Shown: in pieces, positions 1,093-25,605 of the stretch
Numbering within the stretch: position 1 is the first letter of the stretch
Layout of the letters: every line of letters begins with the position of its first letter
Assembly (NCBI GenBank): GCA_037349105.1
Contig: JAYJMM010000120.1
Coordinates: 5,398,001 to 5,462,000, forward strand
Direction: 5' to 3'
DNA length: 64,000 nt
Source of the DNA: Limnomonas spitsbergensis
Lineage: Eukaryota > Chlorophyta > Chlorophyceae > Chlamydomonadales
Made by a program: the position numbers and the translations under genes
The notes under the pieces: generated by a model
The model's database searches: none
The model's input: only the letters and a program-made list of their open reading frames with translations
What the model was told of the DNA's origin: nothing

Positions 1093-2559
1093 GTGGAGGA
1101 GTTGATGGAACAGTGCCGAGGTGAGGTCTACGTGCATCACATGTGGGGCCGCTACTTCTTCCTGCCCGGCCTGGTGTTCTTCCAGACCGGTCGCTGGCAT
1201 TTGCCACACAAGGACATGCAGGCGCTGGTGTCGGCCATACGGCGCATTGTTCGCCTGCAGTGGACGCTACTGCTCAGCTTTGAGGATGTGAGCCCTGGGC
1301 GGCCGCGGGGATCTCTGCTCCAGGATAGCTTGAGAAGAAAAAGTGTGATATCCCACAGCATCCCCAGTGACGAAACAAGGAGTTCACACAAACACATAAC
1401 TCGTTTTTGTTTTTGTGATTATCGTTGGTCCTTGTGTGTCTGTTTGTGTGAATTACTTTCGTCCCTGTCGAGGTGAGCGGGGTGGCCAGGGGGAGACCTC
1501 TCACCTGCTCCTCTGGCTGGGTTGACGGGAACTATAGTAGTGTCCTAGTTCACGTCACTCCTGTTCTGGAGGTGGTGAGTGGGGAGGCAGTGGGGAGGCC
1601 CCCGCCCGCAGACTTGGGTGTTCGGAAAGAGGAAGTGCTGTACTGCTGTACTGCTGTGGGTGCTCGTGTGTAGTTTACCCTCAGGACCTTGAGGACGTTC
1701 CAGGACCATGACAATGCTCTGACCACCGTCCTTGTTGTCTGCTCGTAGGGCTTTGATGATAATATGGCGGTGAGCAGGGGAGGTGGGCGATCGCGGCACT
1801 GCGCTGCCCTAGGTGGAGTGCTTGCATAAAGCGGCAGCCACGGGGGATGGGGACGGGCTGACCGGTCTCTCGGAGGTATCGCTTTTTGCAGCCTTTCCAC
1901 TCCAACTGATCTTAACCTGTATGCATTTTAAATCTGCATAGAACTCTGCATGCATTCTAAATCTTTATTCTAAATCTGCATGCTTAATCTGGATCTAACT
2001 ATGCATGCATCTGCAACCATCTACCTGACACCACTACACCAGGCTCTCTCCATCTCTGAAGCTACTGTAGGGTAGATCTGCCTCTCCTCTCAGGCTCTCA
2101 CCTATGCCTCCCACCCCCCTGTCCCTGCCTTCCAACCTTGCTGCACGTGCATCATAACTTCTACCCCCCCCCCCGCATTGAGAGCATAACTTCTACCCCC
2201 CCCCCCCCCGCATTGAGAGCATAACTTTTCCCCTTCCCACACACCCCACCCTTGCAGCGTGTGCTTCAAGACTTATCCCCCCATTCCCCCTAGTTTGGGG
2301 ACTTAACCCCCCATCCCCCCTAGTTGAAGGCCTTCACCCCCCACTCCCCTGCAGCGTGTCCTTCAGGACTTAACCCCCCATCCCCCCTACTTTAAGGCCT
2401 TCACCCTTCACTCCCCTGCAGCGTGTCCTTCAGGACTTCTACCCCAAGGCCCTCATGTCTGAGCTGTCCCTTTACATGCACCGTGCCTTAGTGGACCTTC
2501 ACGCAGCCTTCCCGGGCGGCTCCTGCATTAATGTGGATAACCTGCTCAACCTGGGTCAG
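1093..2559 (+). CDS. Unknown gene 1, 5' exons in window (three exons)
   Basis: Three exons of a gene that begins before the window. Exon 1093-1287 (65 codons, after CCCCGCAG, donor GTGAGC) reads VEELMEQCRGEVYVHHMWGR onward and holds a hydrophobic patch, FFLPGLVFF. A 21-nt microexon at 1749-1769 (GFDDNMA; acceptor CTCGTAG, donor GTGAGC) and exon 2422-2559 (46 codons; CCCTGCAG, donor GTGAGA) follow, all phase 0, so the frame is continuous across the joins. The third exon ends INVDNLLNLGQ, the segment copied in the 88-bp array that follows. The product was not recognised: mixed amphipathic helices with one possible membrane-associated stretch. It should continue at 14107 because phase and strand agree. 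Exon calls rest on splice signals, phase and amino-acid composition, not homology. The microexon is the weakest part. Confidence 0.6.
2155..2421 (+). repeat. Duplicated acceptor/exon-start units before exon 2422
   Basis: The boundary CTGCAG followed by the exon start CGTGTCCTTCAGGACTT occurs at the real junction (2421/2422) and in an upstream copy near 2353. A diverged copy lies near 2256 (CGTGTGCTTCAAGACTT). Copies are separated by C-rich spacers with CCCCCCAT..CCCCCTAGT. A further short repeat with CGCATTGAGAGCATAACTT lies at 2170-2230. The duplicated sequence is acceptor plus the first 17 nt of the exon, so this is a small tandem array seeded on a 3' splice site. Confidence 0.8.
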
Positions 2560-5500
2560 GTGAGACGGGGGTACAAGGGGGCAGACAGGTGGGATCCTGT
2601 CGGGTGGCTCCAGCATCAATGTGGACAACCTGCACAACCTGGGTCAGGTGAGAGGGGGGTACAAGAGGACAGACAGGTGGGATCCTGTCGGGTGGCTCCT
2701 GCATCAATGTGGACAACCTGCTCAACCTGGGTCAGGTGAGACGAGGGTACAAGGGGGCAGACAGGTGGGATCCTGTCGGGTGGCTCCTGCATCGATGTGG
2801 ACAACCTGCTCAACCTGGGTCAGGTGAGACGAGGGTACAAGGGGGCAGACAGGTGGGATCCTGTCGGGTGGCTCCTGCATCGATGTGGATAACCTGCTCA
2901 ACCTGGGTCAGGTGAGACAAGGGAACAAGGATACAGACAGGTGGGGTCCTGTCAGTGGCTCCTGCATCAATGTGGATAACCTGCTCAACCTGGGTCAGGT
3001 GAGACGAGGGTACAAGGGTACAGACAGGTGGGATCCTCCTGTCGGGTGGCTCCTGCATCAATGTGGACAACCTGCTCAACCTGGGTCAGGTGAGAGGGGG
3101 GTACAAGAGGGCAGACAGGTGGGATCCTGTCGGGTGGCTCCTGCATCAATGTGGATAACCTGCTCAACCTGGGTCAGGTGAGACGAGGGTACATGGGTAC
3201 AGACAGGTGGGATCCTGTCGGGTGGCTCCTGCATCAATGTGGACAACCTGCTCAACCTGGGTCAGGTGAGAGGGGGTTACAGGAGGGCAGACAGGTGGGA
3301 TCCTGTCGGGTGGCTCCTGCATCAATGTGGATAACCTGCTCAACCTGGGTCAGGTGAGACGAGGGTACAAGGATACAGACAGGTGGGATCCTGTCGGGTG
3401 GCTCCTGCATCAATGTGGATAACCTGCTCAACCTGGGTCGGGTGAGACGAGGGTACATGGGTACAGATAGGTGGGATCCTGTCGGGTGGCTCCTGCATCA
3501 ATGTGGATAACCTGCTCAACCTGGGTCAGGTGAGACGAGGGTACAAGGATACAGATAGGTGGGATCCTGTCGGGTGGCTCCTGCATCAATGTGGATAACC
3601 TGCTCAACCTGGGTCAGGTGAGGCGAGGGTACATGGGTATAGACAGGTGGGATCCTGTCAGGTGGCTCCTGCATCAATGTGGATAACCTGCTCAACCTGG
3701 GTCAGGTGAGACGAGGGTACATGGGTATAGACAGGTGGGATCCTGTCAGGTGGCTCCTGCATCAATGTGGATAACCTGCTCAACCTGGGTCGGGTGAGAC
3801 GAGGGTACATGGGTATAGACAGGTGGGATCCTGTCAGGTGGCTCCTGCATCAATGTGGATAACCTGCTCAACCTGGGTCAGGTGAGACGAGGGTACATGG
3901 GTACAGATAGGTGGGATCCTGTCGGGTGGCTCCTGCATCAATGTGGATAACCTGCTCAACCTGGGTCAGGTGAGACGAGGGTACAAGGGGGCAGACAGGT
4001 GGGATCCTGTCGGGTGGCTCCTGCATCAATGTGGATAACCTGCTCAACCTGGGTCGGGTGAGACGAGGGTACAAGGGGGCAGACATGTGGGATCCTGTCA
4101 GGTGGCTCCTGCATCAATGTGGATAACCTGCTCAACCTGGGTCAGGTGAGGCGAGGGTACATGGGTACAGATAGGTGGGATCCTGTCGGGTGGCTCCTGC
4201 ATCAATGTGGATAACCTGCTCAACCTGGGTCAGGTGAGACGAGGGTACAAGGGGGCAGACATGTGGGATCCTGTCGGGTGGCTCCTGCATCAATGTGGAT
4301 AACCTGCTCAACCTGGGTCGGGTGAGACGAGGGTACAAGGGGGCAGACATGTGGGATCCTGTCAGGTGGCTCCTGCATCAATGTAGATAACCTGCTCAAC
4401 CTGGGTCAGGTGAGACGAGGGTACATGGGTACAGATAGGTGGGATCCTGTCGGGTGGCTCCTGCATCAATGTGGATAACCTGCTCAACCTGGGTCAGGTG
4501 AGACGAGGGTACAAGGATACAGATAGGTGGGATCCTGTCGGGTGGCTCCTGCATCAATGTGGATAACCTGCTCAACCTGGGTCGGGTGAGACGAGGGTAC
4601 ATGGGTATAGACAGGTGGGATCCTGTCAGGTGGCTCCTGCATCAATGTGGATAACCTGCTCAAACTGGGTCAGGTGAGAGGGGGGTACATGGGTATAGAC
4701 AGGTGGGATCCTGTCAGGTGGCTCCTGCATCAATGTGGATAACCTGCTCAACCTGGGTCAGGTGAGACGAGGGTACATGGATACAGACAGGTGGGATCCT
4801 GTCGGGTGGCTCCTGCATCAATGTGGACAACCTGCTCAACCTGGGTCAGGTGAGAGGGGGTTACAGGAGGGCAGACAGGTGGGATCCTGTCGGGTGGCTC
4901 CTGCATCAATGTGGATAACCTGCTCAACCTGGGTCAGGTGAGACGAGGGTACAAGGATACAGACAGGTGGGATCCTGTCGGGTGGCTCCTGCATCAATGT
5001 GGATAACCTGCTCAACCTGGGTCGGGTGAGACGAGGGTACATGGGTACAGATAGGTGGGATCCTGTCGGGTGGCTCCTGCATCAATGTGGATAACCTGCT
5101 CAACCTGGGTCAGGTGAGACGAGGGTACAAGGATACAGATAGGTGGGATCCTGTCGGGTGGCTCCTGCATCAATGTGGATAACCTGCTCAACCTGGGTCA
5201 GGTGAGGCGAGGGTACATGGGTATAGACAGGTGGGATCCTGTCAGGTGGCTCCTGCATCAATGTGGATAACCTGCTCAACCTGGGTCAGGTGAGACGAGG
5301 GTACATGGGTATAGACAGGTGGGATCCTGTCAGGTGGCTCCTGCATCAATGTGGATAACCTGCTCAACCTGGGTCGGGTGAGACGAGGGTACATGGGTAT
5401 AGACAGGTGGGATCCTGTCAGGTGGCTCCTGCATCAATGTGGATAACCTGCTCAACCTGGGTCAGGTGAGACGAGGGTACATGGGTACAGATAGGTGGGA

Positions 5501-8500
5501 TCCTGTCGGGTGGCTCCTGCATCAATGTGGATAACCTGCTCAACCTGGGTCAGGTGAGACGAGGGTACAAGGGGGCAGACAGGTGGGATCCTGTCGGGTG
5601 GCTCCTGCATCAATGTGGATAACCTGCTCAACCTGGGTCGGGTGAGACGAGGGTACAAGGGGGCAGACATGTGGGATCCTGTCAGGTGGCTCCTGCATCA
5701 ATGTGGATAACCTGCTCAACCTGGGTCAGGTGAGGCGAGGGTACATGGGTACAGATAGGTGGGATCCTGTCGGGTGGCTCCTGCATCAATGTGGATAACC
5801 TGCTCAACCTGGGTCAGGTGAGACGAGGGTACAAGGGGGCAGACATGTGGGATCCTGTCGGGTGGCTCCTGCATCAATGTGGATAACCTGCTCAACCTGG
5901 GTCGGGTGAGACGAGGGTACAAGGGGGCAGACATGTGGGATCCTGTCAGGTGGCTCCTGCATCAATGTAGATAACCTGCTCAACCTGGGTCAGGTGAGAC
6001 GAGGGTACATGGGTACAGATAGGTGGGATCCTGTCGGGTGGCTCCTGCATCAATGTGGATAACCTGCTCAACCTGGGTCAGGTGAGACGAGGGTACAAGG
6101 ATACAGATAGGTGGGATCCTGTCGGGTGGCTCCTGCATCAATGTGGATAACCTGCTCAACCTGGGTCGGGTGAGACGAGGGTACATGGGTATAGACAGGT
6201 GGGATCCTGTCAGGTGGCTCCTGCATCAATGTGGATAACCTGCTCAAACTGGGTCAGGTGAGAGGGGGGTACATGGGTATAGACAGGTGGGATCCTGTCA
6301 GGTGGCTCCTGCATCAATGTGGATAACCTGCTCAACCTGGGTCAGGTGAGACGAGGGTACAAGGATACAGACAGGTGGGATCCTGTCGGGTGGCTCCTGC
6401 ATCAATGTGGATAACCTGCTCAACCTGGGTCAGGTGAGAGGGGGGTACATGGATACAGACAGGTGGGATCCTGTCAGGTGGCTCCTGCATCAATGTGGAT
6501 AACCTGCTCAACCTGGGTCGGGTGAGACGAGGGTACATGGGTATAGACAGGTGGGATCCTGTCAGGTGGCTCCTGCATCAATGTGGACAACCTGCTCAAC
6601 CTGGGTCAGGTGAGAGGGGGGTACAAGGGGGCAGACAGGTGGGATCCTGTCGGGTGGCTCCTGCATCGATGTGGACAACCTGCTCAACCTGGGTCAGGTG
6701 AGACGAGGGTACAAGGGGGCAGACAGGTGGGATCCTGTCGGGTGGCTCCTGCATCGATGTGGATAACCTGCTCAACCTGGGTCAGGTGAGACAAGGGAAC
6801 AAGGATACAGACAGGTGGGGTCCTGTCAGTGGCTCCTGCATCAATGTGGATAACCTGCTCAACCTGGGTCAGGTGAGACGAGGGTACAAGGGTACAGACA
6901 GGTGGGATCCTCCTGTCGGGTGGCTCCTGCATCGATGTGGATAACCTGCTCAACCTGGGTCAGGTGAGACAAGGGAACAAGGATACAGACAGGTGGGGTC
7001 CTGTCAGTGGCTCCTGCATCAATGTGGATAACCTGCTCAACCTGGGTCAGGTGAGACGAGGGTACAAGGGTACAGACAGGTGGGATCCTCCTGTCGGGTG
7101 GCTCCTGCATCAATGTGGACAACCTGCTCAACCTGGGTCAGGTGAGAGGGGGGTACAAGAGGGCAGACAGGTGGGATCCTGTCGGGTGGCTCCTGCATCA
7201 ATGTGGATAACCTGCTCAACCTGGGTCAGGTGAGACGAGGGTACATGGGTACAGACAGGTGGGATCCTGTCGGGTGGCTCCTGCATCAATGTGGACAACC
7301 TGCTCAACCTGGGTCAGGTGAGAGGGGGTTACAGGAGGGCAGACAGGTGGGATCCTGTCGGGTGGCTCCTGCATCAATGTGGATAACCTGCTCAACCTGG
7401 GTCAGGTGAGACGAGGGTACAAGGATACAGACAGGTGGGATCCTGTCGGGTGGCTCCTGCATCAATGTGGATAACCTGCTCAACCTGGGTCGGGTGAGAC
7501 GAGGGTACATGGGTATAGATAGGTGGGATCCTGTCGGGTGGCTCCTGCATCAATGTGGATAACCTGCTCAACCTGGGTCGGGTGAGACAAGGGTGCAAGG
7601 GCACAGACAGGTGGGATCCTGTCGGGTGGCTCCTGCATCAATGTGGACAACCTGCTCAACCTGGGTCAGGTGAGAGGGGGTTACAGGAGGGCAGACAGGT
7701 GGGATCCTGTCGGGTGGCTCCTGCATCAATGTGGATAACCTGCTCAACCTGGGTCAGGTGAGACGAGGGTACAAGGATACAGACAGGTGGGATCCTGTCG
7801 GGTGGCTCCTGCATCAATGTGGATAACCTGCTCAACCTGGGTCAGGTGAGACGAGGGTACAAGGATACAGATAGGTGGGATCCTGTCGGGTGGCTCCTGC
7901 ATCAATGTGGATAACCTGCTCAACCTGGGTCAGGTGAGACGAGGGTACATGGGTATAGACAGGTGGGATCCTGTCAGGTGGCTCCTGCATCAATGTGGAT
8001 AACCTGCTCAACCTGGGTCAGGTGAGACGAGGGTACATGGGTATAGACAGGTGGGATCCTGTCAGGTGGCTCCTGCATCAATGTGGATAACCTGCTCAAC
8101 CTGGGTCGGGTGAGATGAGGGTACATGGGTATAGACAGGTGGGATCCTGTCAGGTGGCTCCTGCATCAATGTGGATAACCTGCTCAACCTGGGTCAGGTG
8201 AGACGAGGGTACATGGGTACAGATAGGTGGGATCCTGTCGGGTGGCTCCTGCATCAATGTGGATAACCTGCTCAACCTGGGTCAGGTGAGACGAGGGTAC
8301 AAGGGGGCAGACAGGTGGGATCCTGTCGGGTGGCTCCTGCATCAATGTGGATAACCTGCTCAACCTGGGTCGGGTGAGACGAGGGTACAAGGGGGCAGAC
8401 ATGTGGGATCCTGTCAGGTGGCTCCTGCATCAATGTGGATAACCTGCTCAACCTGGGTCAGGTGAGGCGAGGGTACATGGGTACAGATAGGTGGGATCCT

Positions 8501-11500
8501 GTCGGGTGGCTCCTGCATCAATGTGGATAACCTGCTCAACCTGGGTCAGGTGAGACGAGGGTACAAGGGGGCAGACATGTGGGATCCTGTCGGGTGGCTC
8601 CTGCATCAATGTGGATAACCTGCTCAACCTGGGTCGGGTGAGACGAGGGTACAAGGGGGCAGACATGTGGGATCCTGTCAGGTGGCTCCTGCATCAATGT
8701 GGATAACCTGCTCAACCTGGGTCAGGTGAGACGAGGTCATGGGTACAGATAGGTGGGATCCTGTCGGGTGGCTCCTGCATCAATGTGGATAACCTGCTCA
8801 ACCTGGGTCAGGTGAGACGAGGGTACAAGGATACAGATAGGTGGGATCCTGTCGGGTGGCTCCTGCATCAATGTGGATAACCTGCTCAACCTGGGTCGGG
8901 TGAGACGAGGGTACATGGGTATAGACAGGTGGGATCCTGTCAGGTGGCTCCTGCATCAATGTGGATAACCTGCTCAACCTGGGTCAGGTGAGAGGGGGGT
9001 ACATGGGTATAGACAGGTGGGATCCTGTCAGGTGGCTCCTGCATCAATGTGGATAACCTGCTCAACCTGGGTCAGGTGAGACGAGGGTACATGGATACAG
9101 ACAGGTGGGATCCTGTCGGGTGGCTCCTGCATCAATGTGGATAACCTGCTCAACCTGGGTCAGGTGAGAGGGGGGTACATGGATACAGACAGGTGGGATC
9201 CTGTCAGGTGGCTCCTGCATCAATGTGGATAACCTGCTCAACCTGGGTCGGGTGAGACGAGGGTACATGGGTATAGACAGGTGGGATCCTGTCAGGTGGC
9301 TCCTGCATCAATGTGGATAACCTGCTCAACCTGGGTCAGGTGAGAGGGGGGTACATGGGTATAGACAGGTGGGATCCTGTCAGGTGGCTCCTGCATCAAT
9401 GTGGATAACCTGCTCAACCTGGGTCAGGTGAGACGAGGGTACATGGATACAGACAGGTGGGATCCTGTCGAGTGGCTCCTGCATCAATGTGGATAACCTG
9501 CTCAACCTGGGTCAGGTGAGAGGGGGGTACATGGATACAGACAGGTGGGATCCTGTCGGGTGGCTCCTGCATCAATGTGGATAACCTGCTCAACCTGGGT
9601 CAGGTGAGAGGGGGGTACATGGGTATAGACAGGTGGGATCCTGTCAGGTGGCTCCTGCATCAATGTGGATAACCTGCTCAACCTGGGTCAGGTGAGACGA
9701 GGGTACAAGGATACAGACAGGTGGGATCCTGTCGGGTGGCTCCTGCATCAATGTGGATAACCTGCTCAACCTGGGTCGGGTGAGACGAGGGTACATGGGT
9801 ATAGACAGGTGGGATCCTGTCAGGTGGCTCCTGCATCAATGTGGATAACCTGCTCAACCTGGGTCAGGTGAGACGAGGGTACAAGGGGGCAGACAGGTGG
9901 GATCCTGTCGGGTGGCTCCTGCATCAATGTGGACAACCTGCTCAACCTGGGTCAGGTGAGACGAGGGTACATGGGTACAGACAGGTGGGATCCTGTCGGG
10001 TGGTTCCTGCATCAATGTGGACAACCTGCTCAACCTGGGTCGGGTGAGACGAGGGTACATGGGTACAGATAGGTGGGATCCTGTCGGGTGGCTCCTGCAT
10101 CAATGTGGATAACCTGCTCAACCTGGGTCAGGTGAGACAAGGGTGCAAGGGCACAGACAGGTGGGATCCTGTCGGGTGGCTCCTGCATCAATGTGGACAA
10201 CCTGCTCAACCTGGGTCAGGTGAGACGAGGGTACAAGAGGGCAGACAGGTGGGATCCTGTCGGGTGGCTCCTGCATCAATGTGGACAACCTGCTCAACCT
10301 GGGTCAGGTGAGACGAGGGTACAAGGGGGCAGACAGGTGGGATCCTGTCGGGTGGCTCCTGCATCAATGTGGATAACCTGCTCAACCTGGTTCCTGTGAG
10401 ACGGGGGTACAGGAGGGCACAGACTGGCGGGATCCTGTCGGGTGGCTCCTGCATCAATGTGAATAACCTGCTCAACCTGGGTCAGGTGAGACGAGGGTAC
10501 AAGGGGGCAGACAGGTGGGATCCTGTCGGGTGGCTCCTGCATCAATGTGGATAACCTGCTCAACCTGGGTCGGGTGAGACGAGGGTACATGGGTATAGAC
10601 AGGTGGGATCCTGTCAGGTGGCTCCTGCATCAATGTGGATAACCTGCTCAACCTGGGTCAGGTGAGACGAGGGTACAAGGGGGCAGACAGGTGGGATCCT
10701 GTTGGGTGGCTCCTGCATCAATGTGGACAACCTGCTCAACCTGGGTCAGTTGAGACGAGGGTACATGGGTACAGACAGGTGGGATCCTGTCGGGTGGTTC
10801 CTGCATCAATGTGGACAACCTGCTCAACCTGGGTCGGGTGAGACGAGGGTACATGGGTACAGATAGGTGGGATCCTGTCGGGTGGCTCCTGCATCAATGT
10901 GGATAACCTGCTCAACCTGGGTCAGGTGAGACAAGGGTGCAAGGGCACAGACAGGTGGGATCCTGTCGGGTGGCTCCTGCATCAATGTGGACAACCTGCT
11001 CAACCTGGGTCAGGTGAGACGAGGGTACATGGGTACAGACAGGTGGGATCCTGTCGGGTGGTTCCTGCATCAATGTGGACAACCTGCTCAACCTGGGTCA
11101 GGTGAGAGGGGGGTACATGGGTATAGACAGGTGGGATCCTGTCAGGTGGCTCCTGCATCAATGTGGATAACCTGCTCAACCTGGGTCAGGTGAGACGAGG
11201 GTACATGGATACAGACAGGTGGGATCCTGTCGGGTGGCTCCTGCATCAATGTGGATAACCTGCTCAACCTGGGTCAGGTGAGAGGGGGGTACATGGATAC
11301 AGACAGGTGGGATCCTGTCAGGTGGCTCCTGCATCAATGTGGATAACCTGCTCAACCTGGGTCGGGTGAGACGAGGGTACATGGGTATAGACAGGTGGGA
11401 TCCTGTCAGGTGGCTCCTGCATCAATGTGGATAACCTGCTCAACCTGGGTCAGGTGAGAGGGGGGTACATGGGTATAGACAGGTGGGATCCTGTCAGGTG

Positions 11501-13749
11501 GCTCCTGCATCAATGTGGATAACCTGCTCAACCTGGGTCAGGTGAGACGAGGGTACATGGATACAGACAGGTGGGATCCTGTCGGGTGGCTCCTGCATCA
11601 ATGTGGATAACCTGCTCAACCTGGGTCAGGTGAGAGGGGGGTACATGGATACAGACAGGTGGGATCCTGTCGGGTGGCTCCTGCATCAATGTGGATAACC
11701 TGCTCAACCTGGGTCAGGTGAGAGGGGGGTACATGGGTATAGACAGGTGGGATCCTGTCAGGTGGCTCCTGCATCAATGTGGATAACCTGCTCAACCTGG
11801 GTCAGGTGAGACGAGGGTACAAGGATACAGACAGGTGGGATCCTGTCGGGTGGCTCCTGCATCAATGTGGATAACCTGCTCAACCTGGGTCGGGTGAGAC
11901 GAGGGTACATGGGTATAGACAGGTGGGATCCTGTCAGGTGGCTCCTGCATCAATGTGGATAACCTGCTCAACCTGGGTCAGGTGAGACGAGGGTACAAGG
12001 GGGCAGACAGGTGGGATCCTGTCGGGTGGCTCCTGCATCAATGTGGACAACCTGCTCAACCTGGGTCAGGTGAGACGAGGGTACATGGGTACAGACAGGT
12101 GGGATCCTGTCGGGTGGTTCCTGCATCAATGTGGACAACCTGCTCAACCTGGGTCGGGTGAGACGAGGGTGCATGGGTACAGATAGGTGGGATCCTGTCG
12201 GGTGGCTCCTGCATCAATGTGGATAACCTGCTCAACCTGGGTCAGGTGAGACAAGGGTGCAAGGGCACAGACAGGTGGGATCCTGTCGGGTGGCTCCTGC
12301 ATCAATGTGGACAACCTGCTCAACCTGGGTCAGGTGAGACGAGGGTACAAGAGGGCAGACAGGTGGGATCCTGTCGGGTGGCTCCTGCATCAATGTGGAC
12401 AACCTGCTCAACCTGGGTCAGGTGAGACGAGGGTACAAGGGGGCAGACAGGTGGGATCCTGTCGGGTGGCTCCTGCATCAATGTGGATAACCTGCTCAAC
12501 CTGGTTCCTGTGAGACGGGGGTACAGGAGGGCACAGACTGGCGGGATCCTGTCGGGTGGCTCCTGCATCAATGTGGACAACCTGCTCAACCTGGGTCAGG
12601 TGAGACGAGGGTACAAGGGGGCAGACAGGTGGGATCCTGTCGGGTGGCTCCTGCATCAATGTGGATAACCTGCTCAACCTGGGTCGGGTGAGACGAGGGT
12701 ACATGGGTATAGACAGGTGGGATCCTGTCAGGTGGCTCCTGCATCAATGTGGATAACCTGCTCAACCTGGGTCAGGTGAGACGAGGGTACAAGGGGGCAG
12801 ACAGGTGGGATCCTGTTGGGTGGCTCCTGCATCAATGTGGACAACCTGCTCAACCTGGGTCAGGTGAGACGAGGGTACATGGGTACAGACAGGTGGGATC
12901 CTGTCGGGTGGTTCCTGCATCAATGTGGACAACCTGCTCAACCTGGGTCGGGTGAGACGAGGGTACATGGGTACAGATAGGTGGGATCCTGTCGGGTGGC
13001 TCCTGCATCAATGTGGATAACCTGCTCAACCTGGGTCAGGTGAGACAAGGGTGCAAGGGCACAGACAGGTGGGATCCTGTCGGGTGGCTCCTGCATCAAT
13101 GTGGACAACCTGCTCAACCTGGGTCAGGTGAGACGAGGGTACAAGAGGGCAGACAGGTGGGATCCTGTCGGGTGGCTCCTGCATCAATGTGGACAACCTG
13201 CTCAACCTGGGTCAGGTGAGACGAGGGTACAAGGGGGCAGACAGGTGGGATCCTGTCGGGTGGCTCCTGCATCAATGTGGATAACCTGCTCAACCTGGTT
13301 CCTGTGAGACGGGGGTACAGGAGGGCACAGACTGGCGGGATCCTGTCGGGTGGCTCCTGCATCAATGTGAATAACCTGCTCAACCTGGGTCAGGTGAGAC
13401 GAGGGTACAAGGGGGCAGACATGTGGGATCCTGTCGGGTGGCTCCTGCATCAATGTGGACAACCTGCTCAACCTGGGTCAGGTGAGACGAGGGTACAAGG
13501 GGGCAGACAGGTGGGATCCTGTCGGGTGGCTCCTGCATCAATGTGGACAACCTGCTCAACCTGGGTCGGGTAAGACGAGGGTACAAGAGGGCAGACAGGT
13601 GGGATCCTGTCGGGTGGCTCCTGCATCAATGTGGATAACCTGCTCAACCTGGGTCAGGTGAGACGAGGGTACAAGGGTACAGACAGGTGGGATCCTGTCA
13701 GGTGGATCTTGCACTGATTGTGAGAACCTGCTCAACCTGGGTCGGGTGA
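2518..13749 (+). repeat. 88-bp tandem array (~127 copies) copying an exon end and splice donor
   Basis: A head-to-tail array of an 88-bp unit, with some 90-91 bp variants. Each unit starts with GGCTCCTGCATCAATGTGG, continues through AACCTGCTCAACCTGGGTCAG and the donor GTGAGA, then has a spacer with GGTACAAGG..ACAGACAGG and a BamHI site (GGATCC). The first 42 nt equal the last 14 codons of exon 2422-2559, so the array multiplied an exon-intron boundary. Frame is not kept (88 is not a multiple of 3) and stops occur, so it is not coding; the many 60-98 codon frames on both strands are artefacts. Variation is confined to a few spacer sites and one base before the donor. A block of 18 units (1584 bp) around 3250-4830 recurs at 4836-6420. 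The last, diverged unit ends near 13749. Confidence 0.97.
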
Positions 13750-14106
13750 TGACCTGGGTGGTGCGCATGGTGCTGCTTGATACTGCCGTGGACAGCCGTG
13801 CAGCAGGTGGAACGTCGACAGAAAAAAACGAGATTGGGAGGGCAGCCAGTGGTGATTCTGATAGCTTGAAAATGCCAGAGTGCTGTACTGTTTTGTCTTG
13901 CGGAGTGCATGGACTCCAATAATGTGCGCTGTGCATTATGTCTTGTGGAATCCATCACAGGATGCTTGTGGTGTGCCTGCTGGTGATGGACTGCCGTGGC
14001 GAGCTGCGCTGCCTCTGTTGCCGTGGGTGTAAATGGCTGAACGCCTGTGCAACCACCTGAAGAAGGATAGATGCCATCCCCCCCCTTCCCTGTTGCACGC
14101 CTGCAG
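13750..14106 (+). other. Tail of the array intron; one unsupported open stretch
   Basis: From the last degenerate 88-bp unit a frame stays open to 13922 and begins VMTWVVRMVLLDTAVDSRAA. It has no acceptor directly before it and its start aligns with the degenerate donor of the last unit. It may be the remnant of an older exon, but it is read here as intron. The end is a good acceptor, GCACGCCTGCAG, at 14106. Confidence 0.4.
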
Positions 14107-17033
14107 GTCGTGGACTGCCTCATCCAAATCAGCGACACGCGCAACAGGGGTGCAGCGATGAACATGCGGCGAGGGCGCAGCCACCGGCGGCGGGCAGATG
14201 AGATCGTGTTGCCTTCATGGGACAACGGCTCGGCGGACATCCCACGTGACTCGCCCAAACCGCCGTTTCCGGACAGTGGCGCTTCCGCAGTCACGGCTCA
14301 GCCCCTGGCCGGGAGCGGCGACGTGGGCGCTGCTATGTTCCTGACGCAGGCCTTGTCCACGGTCCCAGGTCAACTGTCGCTGATTGGCTTGCCCCCGCGT
14401 CACTTCCTGCGCTCGTCGGACGACGAGGCCTCCGGCGAGGCCCAGGCGAGGCCGTCGCTGCATCAGAGTTGGGATGCTGCCCTCCCTGGCGTCCCGTGGT
14501 CAGGTGCATCTCCTGCAGGCCCTGCGAATCGCGTGCCTGCTGGCCTGGAGCCGCAGCCCAGGAGTGTAGGGTCTGAGGACCCAAACCCTTTTGAACGATT
14601 GCGCTCCCTGTCCAGGCACCATGGCCTTCCCACGATTCTGTCCCAGGTGGGTCCTGTCATCCTGCACAGGCCATACCTAAACCCTACCGTGAATCCTAAA
14701 CCCTAAGGCAAGCAATCGGTCAGTATGGAGTGCCGTGGCCTCTTGTTTGCACACCGCACTTGATGTTTGAGGTATAGCATCCCGGCATCCCCCTGACCTG
14801 CGCCTGGCATTGTAGCACAACCTGTGCCGATTTGTGCTACCTTGGCACAAATCCGGCTAAACCTGTGTCTGATCATGCTGCATCGTGCTACCACGGCACT
14901 AGGTACCACAGCCTTCCAACCTTTCTCTACCCGGCAGTGTTCAGGGTTCACGGTGGAGGCACCACCTTGCGAGACTGGCTCTCCCCTTACTGACCTCAGC
15001 CCCGCCCGCTTTCCTGCACGTCAGGAGGACATGCAGCAGGTCCTTTCGGGGATGTGTGCCGCAGGGGCAGGCCCAGAGCCGGACACCGGCAGCTCCCCCC
15101 GTAGCAGGCATCCAGCCGGAGCGCTGGACGCCCGCGTCTCCCCCCACATCGGGCATCCCAGAGACTCCGCCAGCCCGCTGCTTGGTACCAGCAGCTCTGG
15201 AAATGGCATCAAGTCCTTGGACTTGACGCATGCGGAGGATGCTGCGCGGACGGCAGCAGAGCCTCATGGCGAGCCTGCGCACACGGCTGGACCTAGGACT
15301 GACGCGGCCATTGTGGATCGAACAGGGCATGGATGTTTCACCTCCGGCCTGATGCCCTTTGCCAACAGATCTCCGTTTGAAGTATTTTCAAGCTTAGGGA
15401 CGGTAGACCGCCCAGCGTCCGAGGGAAGCACGGTAGCGATTGAGGTGTCTGCAGCATTGTCCACTGCGGCCCACAAGGTACGGGCCTGATGGGCTCATAC
15501 CCCGGCCATCCAGACTTAACCTTGAACCCAGAGCCCTATTGGCCACATGCCAAACCCTAAGAGTGATAATCGCTGAACCCTGAAGGCTTGCAAACCTTCA
15601 ACCCCCTACCCCAAGACCTCTTGTCAACCCTTCAGCGTTGGTTTCAAACTCGAGTAACACAGTAGAGATGAACCTTATCACTCCACAGTGCTTGTTGATG
15701 GCTACCAGTAAGTAGTGTGAGAGGTTACCAGCTAGCAAGCAAAGAGTGCTGGCCGATGTCCTGCACTCTGCTTGCTGAGGACGGGCCGTCTGTCTGGGGT
15801 ATCTGCCTACATTGCACATGGCAGCACAGCGCTATTGAACAATGGGTAATGGAATGATCCGCATCTTGACCTTGATCTTAAATTCTTAATCCTGATCCCA
15901 ATCCTGATCTGGATCTGGATCCTGGCCTTGATCCTGATCTGACATCATCAGTATGTATGTCAGTATGTGTAATGCTGTTCCGTGTCCATCTTTGTCCCGT
16001 GTTGTTGCAGGATCAAAGCATGCAAATGAGCCGCCTTGGTAGAGAACGTACGCAACAGCAGTACTCCTCAACGTTGCAAGGGGCGCCAGCTGGCAAAGAA
16101 GCTGACGGCTCAGATGAGACTGTGCATCTGCTGCATGCTGCTGGCTGGTCAGGCAAGGGGCATAGGAACATCGTGCGCATGAGCAGCGAGGCATCAGTCG
16201 GAGATGATTTCGAGGCTGGCTGGGATGAGGCTGGAAGACACGGCTGTGCAGGAATGCCTCAGCCTGTTGCTGACAAGGGGAGCACCGGGCAAGTGAGCTT
16301 TGGGGGCCTGCCGCCGCCGATTGCATTGATCAACAGTGCGGCCATCGACCTCGTGAGGCACAAGATGGGTGGGCAGCTAGAGACGAGGCTGTCGACGGCC
16401 TTCATCGAGCCCATCTCCTTCCCACCGACAGAGGAGGGCTACGTGTCTCAGGTGTGAATAAGTGTGACTGGTGTGGGACATGGCTTGATCGCGGTAAGGA
16501 TAGGGATTGCTCTGTTCTGCTGGCCTGAGGGGCAGTGGCTGCATGGCTGTCGCCTCCATACAAGAGCATTTGTGTTTGGTCCTTGGTTTGCTGCCTGACG
16601 CCCTGAAACCTGCCACCCATCTGTGAAGTTTGTAGGGTTAGGGGTCCAGCAGAGCATCACATTTGATGCATGGGACATGTGCCTGTAGACCGGTCCACGG
16701 GTACTTGCACTTCATAAGCCAGGACAGCTAGCGAAACCATTGACCCCCTCTCCCTGCCGCCTCAGTCAGAAATCTGTAGCATCTGTGCAATTTTGTGAAG
16801 ATTTTACACTTCATCAGAGCATCACATTTGATGCATGGGACATGTGCCCGTCTATCTGTCTATCGGAGGTCTGTAGCCTGTGGCATCATGTGGCCTGTCC
16901 TGCCATTATGTTGCTGCTCCAGGTGCATTGGTATTCGTTTCAGTTTCTGATGGATGAGCTGGTGGATGAGCTAGAGGGCGCCTTCCTGGCGGTTTCGGCA
17001 GTGCTGGACAAGCTGCCTCATCCCATTCTATAA
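14107..17033 (+). CDS. Unknown gene 1, 3' exons (four exons, stop at 17031)
   Basis: Four phase-0 exons: 14107-14646 (180 codons, after GCCTGCAG, donor GTGGGT), 14938-15477 (180 codons, after CCCGGCAG, donor GTACGG), 16011-16451 (147 codons, after TTGTTGCAG, donor GTGTGA) and 16923-17033 (36 codons plus TAA, after GCTCCAG). The first three encode a long Ser/Pro/Gly/Ala-rich and charged region, typical of disordered linkers in volvocine proteins, with a basic cluster RRGRSHRRR near the start. The last exon encodes an amphipathic helix, HWYSFQFLMDELVDELEGAF. Together with the 5' exons about 660 residues are visible. No enzymatic motif was recognised. A TGTAA, the volvocine-type polyadenylation signal, occurs at 17689, about 650 bp after the stop. 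The gene is convergent with the GDPD gene. Confidence 0.6.
14795..14915 (-). repeat. Diverged copies of the 43-bp satellite, inverted, in an intron
   Basis: Reverse-complement matches to the satellite at 31495-32315: TAGCACGATGCAGCATG, ACACAGGTTTAGCCGG and CCAAGGTAGCAC can be read on the minus strand. About two and a half diverged copies lie in the intron 14647-14937 of gene 1. Confidence 0.7.
16622..16852 (+). repeat. Two copies of a dispersed repeat (family D2)
   Basis: Two tandem-spaced copies (16622-16748 and 16793-16852) of a sequence with GTGAAGTTT.., then GAGCATCACATTTGATGCAT and GGGACATGTGCC. Further copies lie at 27171-27292 (+), 63755-63812 (-) and, degenerate, 44232-44270 (-). They have no coding capacity. 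They lie in the last intron of gene 1. The class is not identified; it could be another retroelement 3' tail. Confidence 0.7.
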
Positions 17034-17904
17034 GGGACTGTTGAACGTATTGGCTTCAAGCAGCTCCTGGTTGCCAGGTATTTGTTTCTGCCGATCATGC
17101 TATAAGACGACAGATCCGAGACAGGTATTAAGGACAATTATAGAATGCTGTGCGAAGCTCGAAAGTCCTGCGAGTCACGCAGTTCAGCGCTCGTGCATAC
17201 CAGTAGTTGGATCTTGAATCTTATCCATGGTTGCTTGAATCCATTTGTGATACAAGTTTGAAATTTGAATTCCAACATAGCATACCGTAAGAGGAAGGGC
17301 CGTATATTTTGGTCCGGTGGTCATGTATTGAACTAGAAAAAGAACCTGAGCTTGATACAATGCTTCAACCAGTGTTTGGGTTCTTCGGTTGGGGCCTGGT
17401 ACTAGAGCTGTCATTGGCTCAGCTCTAGGTCCTAGGATGCTATTTAATTATTTTATGACAGCGCCGTGAGTGAGGGCGTGTATTTTGAAAGCTGAACTTC
17501 CTTAGATACTGAAATGAAGCAATGTCTGCGATGAAAAAGAGACCCTCGCTGATACTGGTATTTTTTTAGTGTTGCCTGTTCTAGACAGACCTCGATCCTG
17601 CTTTGTCTTCCCACTGCCCAGCACATGTCACACAGATGGCCCAGATCCATAATACATGAATAGCAGACTCCTGCCCTTATAAACACTCTGTAATCTCTTT
17701 AGGTTACTCTATACGGGTTGCTATTAACGATTCAAACAGCACACGCTTTTACCAGTCGCCGTGAAAATAGCTGTGTACAGCAGGGGGGTCTACAGTGTCG
17801 TCCTTGACAAGAGTATTTGACGCAAATTGTAAACCGAACAAAGATGAGCGCGTGAGGCCCCCGTGTGAGCCCGTTTCCTCTCCGATCCGATATTTTATCC
17901 GCCG
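17034..17904. other. Convergent intergenic region (two 3' UTRs)
   Basis: Lies between the stop of gene 1 (17031-17033, + strand) and the stop of the GDPD gene (17905-17907, - strand). It is AT-richer than the flanks, has no convincing frame or repeat, and probably holds both 3' UTRs. Confidence 0.6.
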
Positions 17905-21286: not shown

Positions 21287-24200
21287 GTCAGCAGATTATA
21301 GTGGACCTGCCAAGAAGCCCTCCGTATCACAGGTTAGCAAGGAATCTCTTTTTTCCTTGCCACCGCATCATGAACAACTACCTGCTGCTGGATGAATGGA
21401 GGGCCAAGCCCCTGCTTCCCACAGGTCCTTCTCTTCGTCCCCAACCTGATCTGCTACTTCCGGGTGCTGCTTCTGATCGCGGCCGAGATCCTGCTCACTC
21501 TGGGGCATCCAAATGCTGCTCTTGCATTGCACCTGGCAAACCTCCTTCTGGATGCAGTCGATGGAGCGGTGGCTAGGCGTCTGAACCAGGTAGTAGGTAT
21601 AGAACACATATCTAGGGCTGCGCGGACCTCTGCCATGCTGGTCTCTTACCCCCAGCCATGCAAGGACATGTCTGGCCGGCATGATTGGTTGGATGGAACA
21701 TTCTGTGACTCCTTTGTCGCGTCATTCAAGACCACGCTGTCGGTGCCCTGCATGCAGCTTGTCTGTTTTTTGTTGCAGCTTGTTGCAGCTTGTTGCAGCT
21801 TGGCTGTTTTTTGTTGCAGCTTGTCTGTTTTTTGTAAGGGCGATATCCTAGGCTTCACCTCGCCTGAGGACGGTTGGACGCAAGTCCCATGCGCCCTCTT
21901 TTGCCCCATGAAGCATCTTACATTCCCCCTCCCCCGCATGTCTCCGGTATAACAAGGATTGTAGCATGGATCATAGCATCCTATCCGCCCCCCTCCCCCC
22001 CATCATGACGTGACATGCCATGGACTCAGCATATTTCATACCCCCCCTCCCCCCCCATCATGACGTGACATGCCATGGACTCAGCATATCTCATACCCCC
22101 CCCCCCCCGGCATGTCTCTGACACCCCATGCACTAAACATATGTCATACCCCCCCCCCCCCCCCCTGGCATGTCTCTGACACCCCATGGACTTAACATAT
22201 CTCATAACCGCCCCCCTCCCCGCATGTCTTGTGATGCCTCACAGGTGTCAACCTTTGGCGCCCTCCTAGATGTGCTGGTGGATAACTTGACACGGGCATG
22301 CCTTTGGAGCCGGGCATTCCCAGGCCTGATGGGGATGCTGGTGCCAGCAATAGAAGGGGCCTGTCTAGTGGCCACGCACAAGGTGTGCTGTGTAAGAAAG
22401 CCTTGCTCACATCATAAGGTCAAACAACGTGCTTAATGAACATGCTTTACTGTAATGGGGCCGTGCAGCAAGTACCTAATTGTTTTGGGGTTGAAATTGC
22501 CAACCAAGCCATCCATCTTGGGCAATGTATGTGACCAGGGGAAGATACACAACTTCCAGGTGTGTTTTAATTCTTGGTGTTTTAATCTGAATGGCTGACT
22601 TCCTGTTATGTGCAGAGTGGAGGCAAAGCCTGGAAGGATGGATGCTTCAAAGAGGCTCCGACCTGGGTCCAGGCAATTATGTCCAAGTAAGTCAAAGACA
22701 TGACACCTCTGGGCCATGTCCAAGTAAGTCAAAGACATGACACCTCTGGGCCATGTCCAAGTAAGTCAAAGACATGACACCTCTGGGCCATGTCCAAGTA
22801 ATAAGTCGATGACATGACCCCTCTGGGCCCTGCTCAAGAAGGCTCGGCCGCTAAGTAATAAGTGTATGTCAGTCCGTTAACCCATGCTGGGGCCTTCAAA
22901 AGGCAGTGCCAGACGGTGAGCAAGTCAGCGGGCAGACTGGGCGTGGTGAATCTGAAAGTCTACAAACCTCAAAGATCTGTGTGATCAGTAATCTGACTTA
23001 GCTGCTGTCCCCTGCCTGCCCCCCCTCACGCAACTATATATTTTCTGGTTGCCTAAAAAAAGCAACGATCATAACTGAAGGCGCCCAGCTGACCCAGCTT
23101 CTGTCCCCTGCCTGCTCCCTCTCACGCAACCATCATTTCTGGTTGCCTTAATGATTTCAGGCGCCCGGCTGACCCAGCTGCTGTCCCCTGCCTGCCCCCT
23201 CTCACGCAACTATCATTTCTGGTTGCCTTAATAACTTCAGGCGCCCGGCTGACACAACTACTGTCACCACCACCTGCCTCAGGAACTATGAAAGTCCATC
23301 TGCCACAGCTGCTGCCACCTGCCTGCCTCCCTCTCACACATCATTTCTGGCAGCCTCGATAACTTTTGAAACCCAGCTGACCCAGCTGCTGTCCCTTGCC
23401 CCCTGCCTCAGCAACTTCAGGAGCCCTGCGGACCCAGCTGCCAATCTGCCATCCCTTGCCCCCTGCCTCTGTCATCTCAATCGCCGGACTGACCCAGCTG
23501 CTGTCCCCTGCCCCCTGCCTCAGTAATCTCAAACGCCCGACTGACCCAGCTGATGTCCCTTGCCCCCTGCATCAGTCATCTCAAACGCCCGACTGACCCA
23601 GCTGCTGTCCCTTGCCCCCTGCCTCAGTCATCTCAAATGCCCGACTGACCCAGCTGCTGTCCCTTGCCCCCTGCATCAGTCATCTCAAACGCCTGACTGA
23701 CCCAGCTGCTGTCCCTTGCCCCCTGCCTCAGTAATCTCAAACGCCCGACTGACCCAGCTGATGTCCCTTGCCCCCTGCCTCAGTTATCTCAAACGCCCGA
23801 GTGACCCAGCTGCTGTCCCTTGCCCCCTGCCTCAGTCATCTCAAACGCCCGAATGACCCAGCTGCTGTCCCCTGCCTTCTGCATCAGTAATCTCAAACGC
23901 CCGACTGACCCAGCTGATGTCCCTTGCCCCCTGCCTCAGTCATCTTAAACGCCCGACTGACCCAGCAGCTGTCCCTTGCCCCCTGCCTCAGTCATCTCAA
24001 ATGCCCGACTGACCCAGCTGATGTCCCTTGCCACCTGTCTCAGTCATCTCAAACGCCCGACTGACCCAGCTGTTGTCCCCTGCCCCTGCCTCAGTCATCT
24101 CCAACGCCCGACTGACCCAGCTGCTGTCCCTTGCCCCCTGCCTCCGTCATCTCAAACGCACAAGTGACCCAGCTGCTGTCCCTTGCCCCCTGCCTCAGTC

Positions 24201-25605
24201 ATCTCAAATGCCCGACTGACCCAGCTGCTGTCCCTTGCCCCCTGCCTCAGTCATCTCCAACGCCCGACTGACCCAACTGCTGTCCCTTGCCCCCTGCCTC
24301 AGTCATCTCAAACGCCCGACTGACCCAGCTGCTGTCCCCTGCCCCCTGCCTCAGTCATCTCAAACGCCCGACTGACCCAGCTGCTGTCCCTTGCCCCCTG
24401 CCTCAGTCATCTCAAACGCCCGACTGACCCAGCTGCTGTCCCTTGCCCCCTGCCTCAGTCATCTCAAATGCCCGACTGACCCAGCTGCTGTCCATTGCCC
24501 CCTGCCTCCGTCATCTCAAACGCACAACTGACCCAGCTGCTGTCCCTTGCCCCCTGCCTCAGTCATCTCAAATGCCCGACTGACCCAGCTGCTGTCCCTT
24601 GCCCCCTGCCTCAGTCATCTCCAACGCCCGACTGACCCAACTGCTGTCCCTTGCCCCCTGCCTCAGTCATCTCAAACGCCCGACTGACCCAGCTGCTGTC
24701 CCCTGCCCCCTGCCTCAGTCATCTCAAACGCCCGACTGACCCAGCTGATGTCCCTTGCCCCCTGCCTCAGTCATCTCAAACGCCCGACTGACCCAGCTGC
24801 TGTCCCTTGCCCCCTGCCTCAGTAATCTCAAATGCCCGACTGACCCAGCTGCTGTCCCTTGCCCCCTGCCTCCGTCATCTCAAACACCCGACTGACCCAG
24901 CTGCTGTCCCTTGCCCCCTGCCTCCGTCATCTCAAACGCCCGACTGACCCAGCTGCTGCCCCTTGCCCCCTGCCTCAGTCATCTCAAACGCTGGAATGAC
25001 CCAGCTGCTGCCCCTTGCCCCCTGCCTCAGTCATCTCAAACGCCTGACTGACCCAGCTGCTGTCCCTTGCCCCCTGCCTCAGTCATCTCAATCGCCCGAC
25101 TGACCCAGCTGCTGTCCCTTGCCCCCTGCCTCCGTCATCTCAAATGCCCGACTGACCCAGCTGTTGTCCCTTGCCCCCTGCCTCAGTCATCTCAAACGCT
25201 GGAATGACCCAGCTGCTACCCCTTGCCCCCTGCCTCAGTCATCTCAAACGCTGGAATGACCCAGCTGCTGCCCCTTGCCCCCTGCCTCAGTCATCTCAAA
25301 CGCTGGAATGACCCAGCTGCTGCCCCTTGCCCCCTGCCTCAGTCATCTCAAACGCCCGACTGACCCAGCTGCTGCCCCTTGCCCCCCGCCTCAGCAACTT
25401 CAGGAGCCCTGCCGGCGCAATAGCGGTGGCAGGCCTCATGGGCGCTCCGCTTTGGTGTTGGACGTGTCGAGTGATGCCGGATCATGTGATGTGTAGTCCC
25501 GTGCTGGGAGGGGGTCTGCTTGCTGGACGGGCTCTGGCAGCTTTAGTGGAGGTGTGGGTCCTGAGGCGACACTTTCTGCACGTCCTTCGCATGGATTCGG
25601 CATGA
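21285..25605 (+). CDS. Phosphatidylinositol synthase-like CDP-alcohol phosphatidyltransferase, five exons
   Basis: Predicted integral membrane enzyme (ER/Golgi) that transfers phosphatidate from CDP-diacylglycerol to myo-inositol. Exons: 21285-21332, 21425-21589, 22245-22382, 22616-22686, 25395-25605; phases 0, 0, 0, 2, all GT..AG, giving 210 residues, close to the usual 210-230. Exon 2 starts VLLFVPNLICYFRVLLL, as PI synthases do, and ends DAVDGAVARRLNQ; exon 3 starts VSTFGALLDVLVD. Across the join this is the complete motif D-x2-DG-x2-AR-x8-G-x3-D-x3-D, with the NQ-S-x-FG spacing of the PI-synthase branch. Exon 4 (SGGKAWKDGCF) fits the loop after the motif; the last exon has two hydrophobic helices and ends at TGA 25603. 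An alternative acceptor for exon 5 at 25403 would drop three codons. The start ATG overlaps, on the other strand, the candidate ATG of the GDPD gene. Intron 4 (2.7 kb) is nearly all tandem repeat. Confidence 0.9.
21985..22243. repeat. ~60-bp C-rich repeat before the exon 3 acceptor of the PI-synthase gene
   Basis: Four diverged copies of a unit with a long C run, then CATGTCTCTGACACCCCATG or CATGACGTGACATGCCATG, then CTCAGCATATCTCATA. The last C run precedes the acceptor of exon 3 at 22244, so the array may supply its pyrimidine tract. Confidence 0.75.
22681..22806. repeat. 37-bp repeat duplicating the exon 4 splice donor
   Basis: Three copies of GTCCAAGTAAGTCA followed by AAGACATGACACCTCTGGG and CCAT, then a fourth, altered copy of the first part. 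The first half is the exon 4 end plus donor (TCCAA/GTAAGT). The second half matches the reverse complement of the LINE tail end (CCCAGAGGTGTCATGTC). This is the pattern expected if a very short LINE tail inserted at the donor, duplicated 14 bp of target, and the pair was then amplified. Confidence 0.8.
22807..22852 (-). mobile_element. 46-bp LINE tail with 11-bp TSD
   Basis: The insert, read on the minus strand, is GCGGCCGAGCCTTCTTGAGC followed by AGGGCCCAGAGGGGTCATG and TCATCG. It is flanked by perfect direct repeats AAGTAATAAGT at 22796-22806 and 22853-22863. Confidence 0.88.
22990..25394 (+). repeat. 52-bp tandem array (~39 copies) ending at the exon 5 acceptor
   Basis: From about 23372 the unit is 52 bp: CTGACCCAGCTGCTGTCCCT, TGCCCCCTGCCTCAG and TCATCTCAAACGCCCGA. 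Before that (22990-23371) longer, diverged ~83-bp units share GCGCCCGGCTGACCCAGCTG. Every copy has a pyrimidine tract plus CAG, and the final CAG (25392-25394) is the real acceptor of the PI-synthase last exon. A copy near 23409 reads CAGCAACTTCAGGAGCCCTG, identical to the real junction and exon start at 25392-25411. Frames through the array are artefacts. Confidence 0.95.

Follow-up and report, generated by a model that had tools for sequence, protein, structure and literature searches.

A boundary-spanning 88-bp minisatellite carries 128 copies of a splice donor in a FUSC/ALMT-like gene of the green alga Limnomonas spitsbergensis

Tandem repeats across exon boundaries

Minisatellite-like tandem duplications that lie across intron–exon boundaries have been described in amphioxus under the name of 'mirages', in Adh3 and in the globin genes BflGb6 and BflGb9; RT-PCR suggests that these genes are spliced regularly, and concerted evolution, from which the ends are exempt, takes place inside the cluster, according to the parts of that study consulted here (PMC3087553). 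A related situation is that of the human factor VII gene (F7), where intron 7 contains highly homologous 37-bp repeats and splicing employs their most upstream donor and no other (PMC6627357, consulted in part). In Chlamydomonas and Volvox the density of tandem repeats rises toward intron–exon junctions, but repeats that include the ends of exons, such as those reported below, are not described in the consulted sections of that work (PMC3887541).

In this work we analysed a stretch of 64,000 nucleotides of the L. spitsbergensis genome (contig JAYJMM010000120.1, positions 5,398,001 to 5,462,000), called here the window, in which the end of an exon and its donor are repeated over 11 kb. This array is a boundary-spanning minisatellite of the kind already known in animals, as its tandem units hold exon-derived sequence together with a splice signal, and the same is true of junction copies in paralogous genes. 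As in amphioxus, both 5' and 3' boundaries are hit and many units keep the AG or GT dinucleotide; unlike in amphioxus, where BflGb6 haplotypes have 6 and 3 units in the part of the report used here (PMC3087553), the algal array has 128 units, several edges are affected within one gene family and, judging from a sample, many genes are concerned, and splicing, which was followed by RNA in amphioxus, is deduced here from sequence comparisons. As in F7, the donor at the exon end belongs to the first unit of a highly homologous repeat series; in contrast with F7, for which the consulted pages report a variable number of 37-bp repeats and one donor, the alga has 128 donor copies as well as acceptor arrays, and use of the first donor is deduced from homologues. 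Compared with what these sources report for 'mirages' and F7, the number of copies is far higher. The array is also one of a class that the initial sequence-only reading had not noticed and that includes other exon edges, acceptors, paralogues and a second gene of the window. A partial literature search returned no earlier report of such arrays in algae, and the consulted parts of the published genome paper, which gives 0.10% satellites and 22.78% unclassified repeats and applied TRF for masking, do not mention boundary-spanning repeats.

The array and its host gene

The host gene, g1, was modelled with the Chlamydomonas eustigma protein P0001 as a guide. The model has 15 exons, all its introns are GT-AG, and it encodes 966 amino acids (features in the window and in the surveyed loci are listed in Table 1). 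Pfam assigns the full protein to FUSC (E 2.2e-11) and FUSC_2 (E 7.7e-8), with ALMT below the cut-off; a first, partial g1 protein gave no Pfam match, FUSC being found only with the full protein. The best homologues are from C. eustigma and volvocine algae. The weakest-supported exon is exon 13, which has a partial match in the paralogue g2 and none in the paralogue g3.

Table 1. Features of the window (upper rows), exon edges of g1–g3 with at least three tandem junction copies (at most 3 mismatches) and exon-edge arrays retained in the 200-kb sample (L loci)
Feature	Position	Strand	Support or copies
Exon 9, FUSC/ALMT-like gene	1093..1287	+	frame-preserving GT-AG sites; similarity to C. eustigma P0001
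Exon 10, 21-nt microexon	1749..1769	+	same place in both paralogues and in homologues
Acceptor-side repeats, exon 11	2270..2438	+	periods 30 bp and 67 bp; 3 tandem acceptor-junction copies, all AG
Exon 11, authentic exon with amplified end	2422..2559	+	gene model and homologues
88-bp boundary-spanning array	2513..13749	+	128 units; per unit ~45 nt from the end of exon 11, a donor and a 43-nt spacer
Intron 11, 11,547 bp given first-donor use	2560..14106	+	gene model and homologues
Exon 12	14107..14646	+	gene model; 7/7 homologues pass from exon 11 without extra residues
Exon 13	14938..15477	+	ab initio frame, less conserved
Exon 14	16011..16451	+	gene model and paralogues
Exon 15 including stop codon	16923..17033	+	gene model and paralogues; stop at 17033
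Second gene, donor array	22679..22829	+	37-bp units; 4 donor copies, scores 7.1, 7.1, 7.1, 4.0
Second gene, acceptor-side array, same intron (22687-25394)	23071..25394	+	34 decoy acceptor copies
g1 donor 6			4 junction copies
g1 donor 11			127 of the 128 copies counted
g1 acceptor 11			3 junction copies
g2 acceptor 11			12 junction copies
g3 donor 4			7 junction copies
g3 donor 11			3 junction copies
g3 acceptor 11			32 junction copies
L026 donor	5584		GT 7/7
L026 donor	1175		GT 4/4
L013 donor			GT 29/30
L031 donor	8153		GT 4/4
L029 donor			GT 18/18
L029 acceptor			AG 14/14
L020 donor			4/5 copies keep the splice dinucleotide
L020 acceptor			19/19 copies keep the splice dinucleotide
L019 acceptor			15/15 copies keep the splice dinucleotide

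Run on the window, TRF delimits an array at 2513-13749 with a period of 88, 127.6 copies and 93% matches, which includes 47 nt of exon 11. An anchor search finds 128 donor positions, spaced by exactly 88 in 117 of 127 intervals; GT is retained at 127 of the 128 and GTGAG at 125. When scored as donors, 89 of the 127 decoys equal the first one and none is stronger. The initial sequence-only reading of the window, which had proposed an exon end and its donor amplified into about 127 near-equivalent 5' splice sites, was therefore right on the structure, except that the exon-derived share of the unit amounts to about 45 nt instead of 42; its expectation of one BamHI site per unit also agrees with the 124 sites in the array sequence. 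A DNA search of the genome (an assembly of 260,226,709 bp in 124 contigs) with positions 2400-2700 returned two places, both of them paralogous exon 11 loci, in a procedure that skips very common words; an introner family would instead place similar introns in unrelated genes.

The 128 units comprise 46 distinct sequences, and strings of unit types recur blockwise, with an exact 1,580-bp repeat at 3198 and 4782, that is 1,584 bp or 18 units apart. These properties point to recent block duplication as the mode of growth, in keeping with the recent expansion or homogenisation suggested at the outset. The last unit deviates from the 88-column consensus at 33 columns and the first at 6; among the inner units, three reach 22 deviating columns and a fourth 23, in part through a shift of register. 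Mean consensus match over the 128 units is 98.3% for the exonic 45 nt versus 91.4% for the 43-nt spacer, so that the contrast noticed by the sequence-only reading between a conserved exonic part and a variable spacer exists in the data, but its source is the variants shared by more than two units (3 exonic and 17 intronic in the 110 cleanly spaced units); rarer variants (6 exonic and 4 intronic in the same units) do not contribute. The higher exonic conservation thus rests on few, linked variants and is, alone, no demonstration of selection. With this reservation, greater conservation of the exonic parts is not what simple neutral drift predicts, and it counts to that extent against the explanation proposed below.

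The authentic sites and other exon edges

Eight homologues were compared at the exon 11/12 junction; P0001 stops short of it, and in all seven that cover it the junction is contiguous, with no inserted residues. The claim that only the first donor preserves the frame has to be modified, as the length frame survives with 43 of the 128 possible donors, although a single one, the first, is stop-free into exon 12. Because the homologues run across the junction and only the first donor is stop-free, these comparisons indicate that the conserved protein is made from the first donor (2559/2560) and that only the outermost copy would be used; of the possibilities raised initially, constant choice of the first site fits the seven homologues. 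Exon 6 of g1 has four donors, with scores of 7.0 for the first pair and 10.7 for the second, and homologues fit the first donor despite its weaker score. Between g1 and g2, exons 1-11 (423 codons) show a dN of 0.066 and a dS of 0.649; this conservation is older than the recent growth of the array and is consequently no proof of good expression from the present 128-unit allele.

Two paralogues are present on contig C104, g2 on the minus strand and g3 on the plus strand. Intron positions are common to the paralogues wherever both can be placed, some g3 exons not having been found. At the 74 exon edges of g1, g2 and g3 we looked for tandem repetition of the junction 18-mer, allowing up to 3 mismatches: at least two copies are present at 10 edges and at least three at 7, always on the intron side, and copies in the exon direction were found at 0 of the 74 edges. 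Both 5' and 3' exon boundaries are affected in this family. Allowing 4 mismatches raises the number of edges with at least three copies to 9, and one of the added edges, g1 donor 5, has GT in 2 of its 4 copies. Random 18-mers lie in tandem chains of at least three in 110, 18 and 63 cases out of 300 for each of the three loci, which is as frequent as, or more frequent than, what is seen at exon edges (7 of the 74).

There is suggestive to moderate evidence for a common origin of the g1 and g3 donor arrays. The g1–g3 spacer alignment score is reached by 1 and 0 of 2,000 block shuffles, and, when the donor hexamer is removed, by 51 and 5 of 5,000 dinucleotide shuffles (two g3 units); genomic 42-mers of the loci in this comparison score at least 20 in 15 of 2,757 cases and at least 22 in one. 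The g2 spacer shows no trace of shared donor-array ancestry in this comparison, its score being reached by 4,808 of 5,000 shuffles.

A second gene of the window is affected on both sides of one intron. It is CDP-alcohol phosphatidyltransferase-like: its exon 21425-21589 matches CDP-OH_P_transf in Pfam (PF01066, E 2.3e-8). Thirty of its 34 decoy acceptors match or exceed the score of the authentic one (25394/25395). The copy at 23412 agrees with the exon start at 17 of 17 nt and the other copies at 6-9 of 17 (random 17-mers match on average 4.4 of 17, and 1.7% of them reach 9), so that the inner units have diverged in their exon-derived part. The Volvox homologue P0009 aligns over 193 residues with 50% identity and no gap when the first donor is joined to the last acceptor, and these two sites are therefore probably the authentic pair. 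They define an intron of 2,708 nt versus 485 nt for the shortest donor/acceptor combination; neither a rule of the type 'first acceptor after the branch point' nor one of the type 'shortest intron' yields the sites fitted by P0009.

The frequency of such arrays was estimated in a 200-kb sample made of 20 regions of 10 kb, taken every 80 kb from position 40,001 of contig C120, hence from one part of one contig. It contains 60 arrays (period of at least 20, at least 2.5 copies), which cover 24.1% of it. Exon edges were sought with a simple exon model, for whose training the three paralogues supplied 37 donors, 37 acceptors and 1,888 codons. Over all loci, an exon edge scoring at least 26 lies within the outer unit of 13 of 98 arrays, versus 0 of 98 in reversed sequence, but the training genes account for 5 of the 13; with a cut-off of 20 there are 17 arrays (18 hits), versus 2 hits in reversed sequence. 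In the sample, 8 of the 60 arrays reach 26; a recount of the 14 candidates scoring at least 19.5 retained 9 of the 60, three of which score only 20.8-21.8. The rejected candidates were a donor of L019 at 306 (GT in 1 of 3 copies), an acceptor of L023 (3 of 6 copies, resembling a coding repeat), a donor of L031 at 6243 (32 of 33 copies, but with an uncertain exon end) and two rows of L029 with few copies (4424-4522 and 4309-4423). Pfam was run on 7 of the 9 retained exons and gave two significant matches, both to cNMP_binding (3.9e-7 and 9e-7), and none or weak ones for the others. By eye we took some sample exons to be ABC-transporter-, aldo-keto-reductase- or cyclase-like, an assumption without family support on which we do not rely. 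Rough extrapolation to the genome gives about 6,500 arrays (2,100-15,200) from 5 per 200 kb, or about 10,400 (4,500-20,500) from 8 per 200 kb. An enrichment of arrays at exon edges was considered and rejected: at a score cut-off of 26, 13 of 98 arrays carry an edge, as do 26 of 279 pseudo-arrays placed at random (Fisher p 0.33), and arrays seem to hit exon edges without preference.

Proposed choice of the exon-proximal site

We propose, with a probability of about 0.75, that a boundary minisatellite has grown to 128 units, that the intronic extra copies are tolerated, and that the exon-proximal donor wins by pairing across the exon. A minisatellite straddling the exon 11/intron 11 boundary would have expanded by tandem and block duplication; upon such duplication the outermost copy would stay joined to the intact exon and the surplus copies would land inside the intron. 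As the extra copies are intronic, growth on the intron side would leave the protein unaltered, provided that splicing keeps the outermost copy. We infer that it does so by exon definition: with sites paired across the short exon, the exon-proximal donor would beat about 127 copies, most of them equally strong. Cross-exon pairing would also cover the acceptor arrays, in which the last copy would be the authentic one. Since the last acceptor and the first donor delimit the shortest exon, a single principle would explain donors and acceptors alike. With cross-intron pairing, inner copies would be at an advantage. However, in the consulted part of a study on Volvox (PMC4378016), the short introns of this alga and of Chlamydomonas are taken to indicate intron definition; if so, a choice that produces the longest intron is not favoured, which counts against cross-exon pairing and makes the claim a contested one.

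The 88-bp array is explained equally well by oriented 5'-to-3' scanning, or first come, first served: the earliest transcribed donor would be bound first and win without any pairing across the exon, and oriented scanning is indeed the term used for the F7 intron 7 donor in the part of that report used here (PMC6627357). Such a process predicts use of the first acceptor, whereas the homologue of the CDP-alcohol phosphatidyltransferase-like gene fits the last of 35, and exon 11 comes after the last acceptor copy in g1, g2 and g3. Acceptor arrays that would use their last copy limit oriented scanning to an explanation of donors, and we regard it as possible but lean against it. Alternatively, splicing could be noisy, many donors being used and most products destroyed, so that the array brakes expression while leaving enough correct mRNA; the equal strength of most decoys speaks for this reading, but purifying selection on the family and the fact that arrays recur within the same genes, at several of their edges, suggest a low cost, and we consider it rather unlikely.

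Very improbable, in our opinion, is a recursive removal of the 11.5-kb intron in which each CAG|GTGAG would act as an acceptor and then as a new donor: CAG does immediately precede GTGAG in the units, but no pyrimidine tract precedes that CAG, and steps between neighbouring units would be at most 88 nt. The array could finally consist of only a few units multiplied by the assembly, from which alone the copy number is known and in which the exact internal repeat is prone to mis-assembly; given that the published PacBio reads (L50 32.9 kb, coverage 63x, in the consulted part of the genome paper) exceed the 11.2-kb array, and that the units are of 46 different sequences, such an artefact is a most unlikely origin.

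Whether splice sites of green algae are paired across introns or across exons has so far been argued from intron length. An exon-proximal site that is authentic among equal copies, for donors and for acceptors, offers a direct test of the pairing mode: under cross-intron pairing the authentic pair would correspond to the longest possible intron (11,547 nt in g1 and 2,708 nt in the second gene). Full-length transcript data exist for the published strain, so that mapping alone suffices for this test; the public accessions are JAYJMM000000000, PRJNA953517, SRR24109343 and SRR24109344, and a GFF is deposited at Zenodo under 10.5281/zenodo.10478697. A broader proposal, speculative and in our view doubtful, is that Chlamydomonadalean splice sites are recognised mainly by cross-exon pairing, strictly enough for more than 100 intronic copies of an exon edge to be harmless, and that thousands of such arrays in the genome would drive intron growth and constitute a natural library of splice competition. 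Exon-edge arrays bear on gene annotation, on copy-number evolution and on models of intron growth and gain.

Tandem-array load and the CDP-alcohol phosphatidyltransferase-like gene

Tandem arrays with a period of at least 20 occupy 35% of the whole window and 24% of a 200-kb sample taken from one part of the same contig. The CDP-alcohol phosphatidyltransferase-like gene provides, beside the FUSC/ALMT-like gene g1, a second example of exon-edge arrays: one of its introns carries two of them, one on the donor side and one on the acceptor side.

Locations of the features discussed
Feature	Sequence	Positions	Strand
CDP-alcohol phosphatidyltransferase-like gene	window	21425-25555	+
Its intron with both arrays	window	22687-25394	+
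Reverse transcriptase-like open frames	window	61453-62359	-
Guanylate-cyclase fragments	G000:C20	232900-276889	-
g3 exon 9 region (L008/L005)	G000:C104	about 3182340-3183290	+

Other putative coding elements and the Chlamydomonas eustigma orthologue

Judged by eye, the open frames near the window's end appear reverse transcriptase-like. On contig C20, some twelve guanylate-cyclase fragments that are nearly equal to one another stand in a row. Many of them contain one TGA, and the row is a repeated exon or gene cluster.

In the C. eustigma annotation the g1 orthologue seems to be split into two models, because the adjoining models P0001 (g10581) and P0008 (g10580) cover, one, exons 1-9 of g1 and, the other, exon 10 onward.

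An additional intron in the paralogue g3

Among g1 and its paralogues g2 and g3, only g3 has its exon 9 split by an additional intron. This intron starts with a CCCAGG-type hexamer array, and TTCAG occurs twice around it, at the exon end and at the intron's own 3' end. From its sequence, it is a candidate for repeat-driven intron gain.
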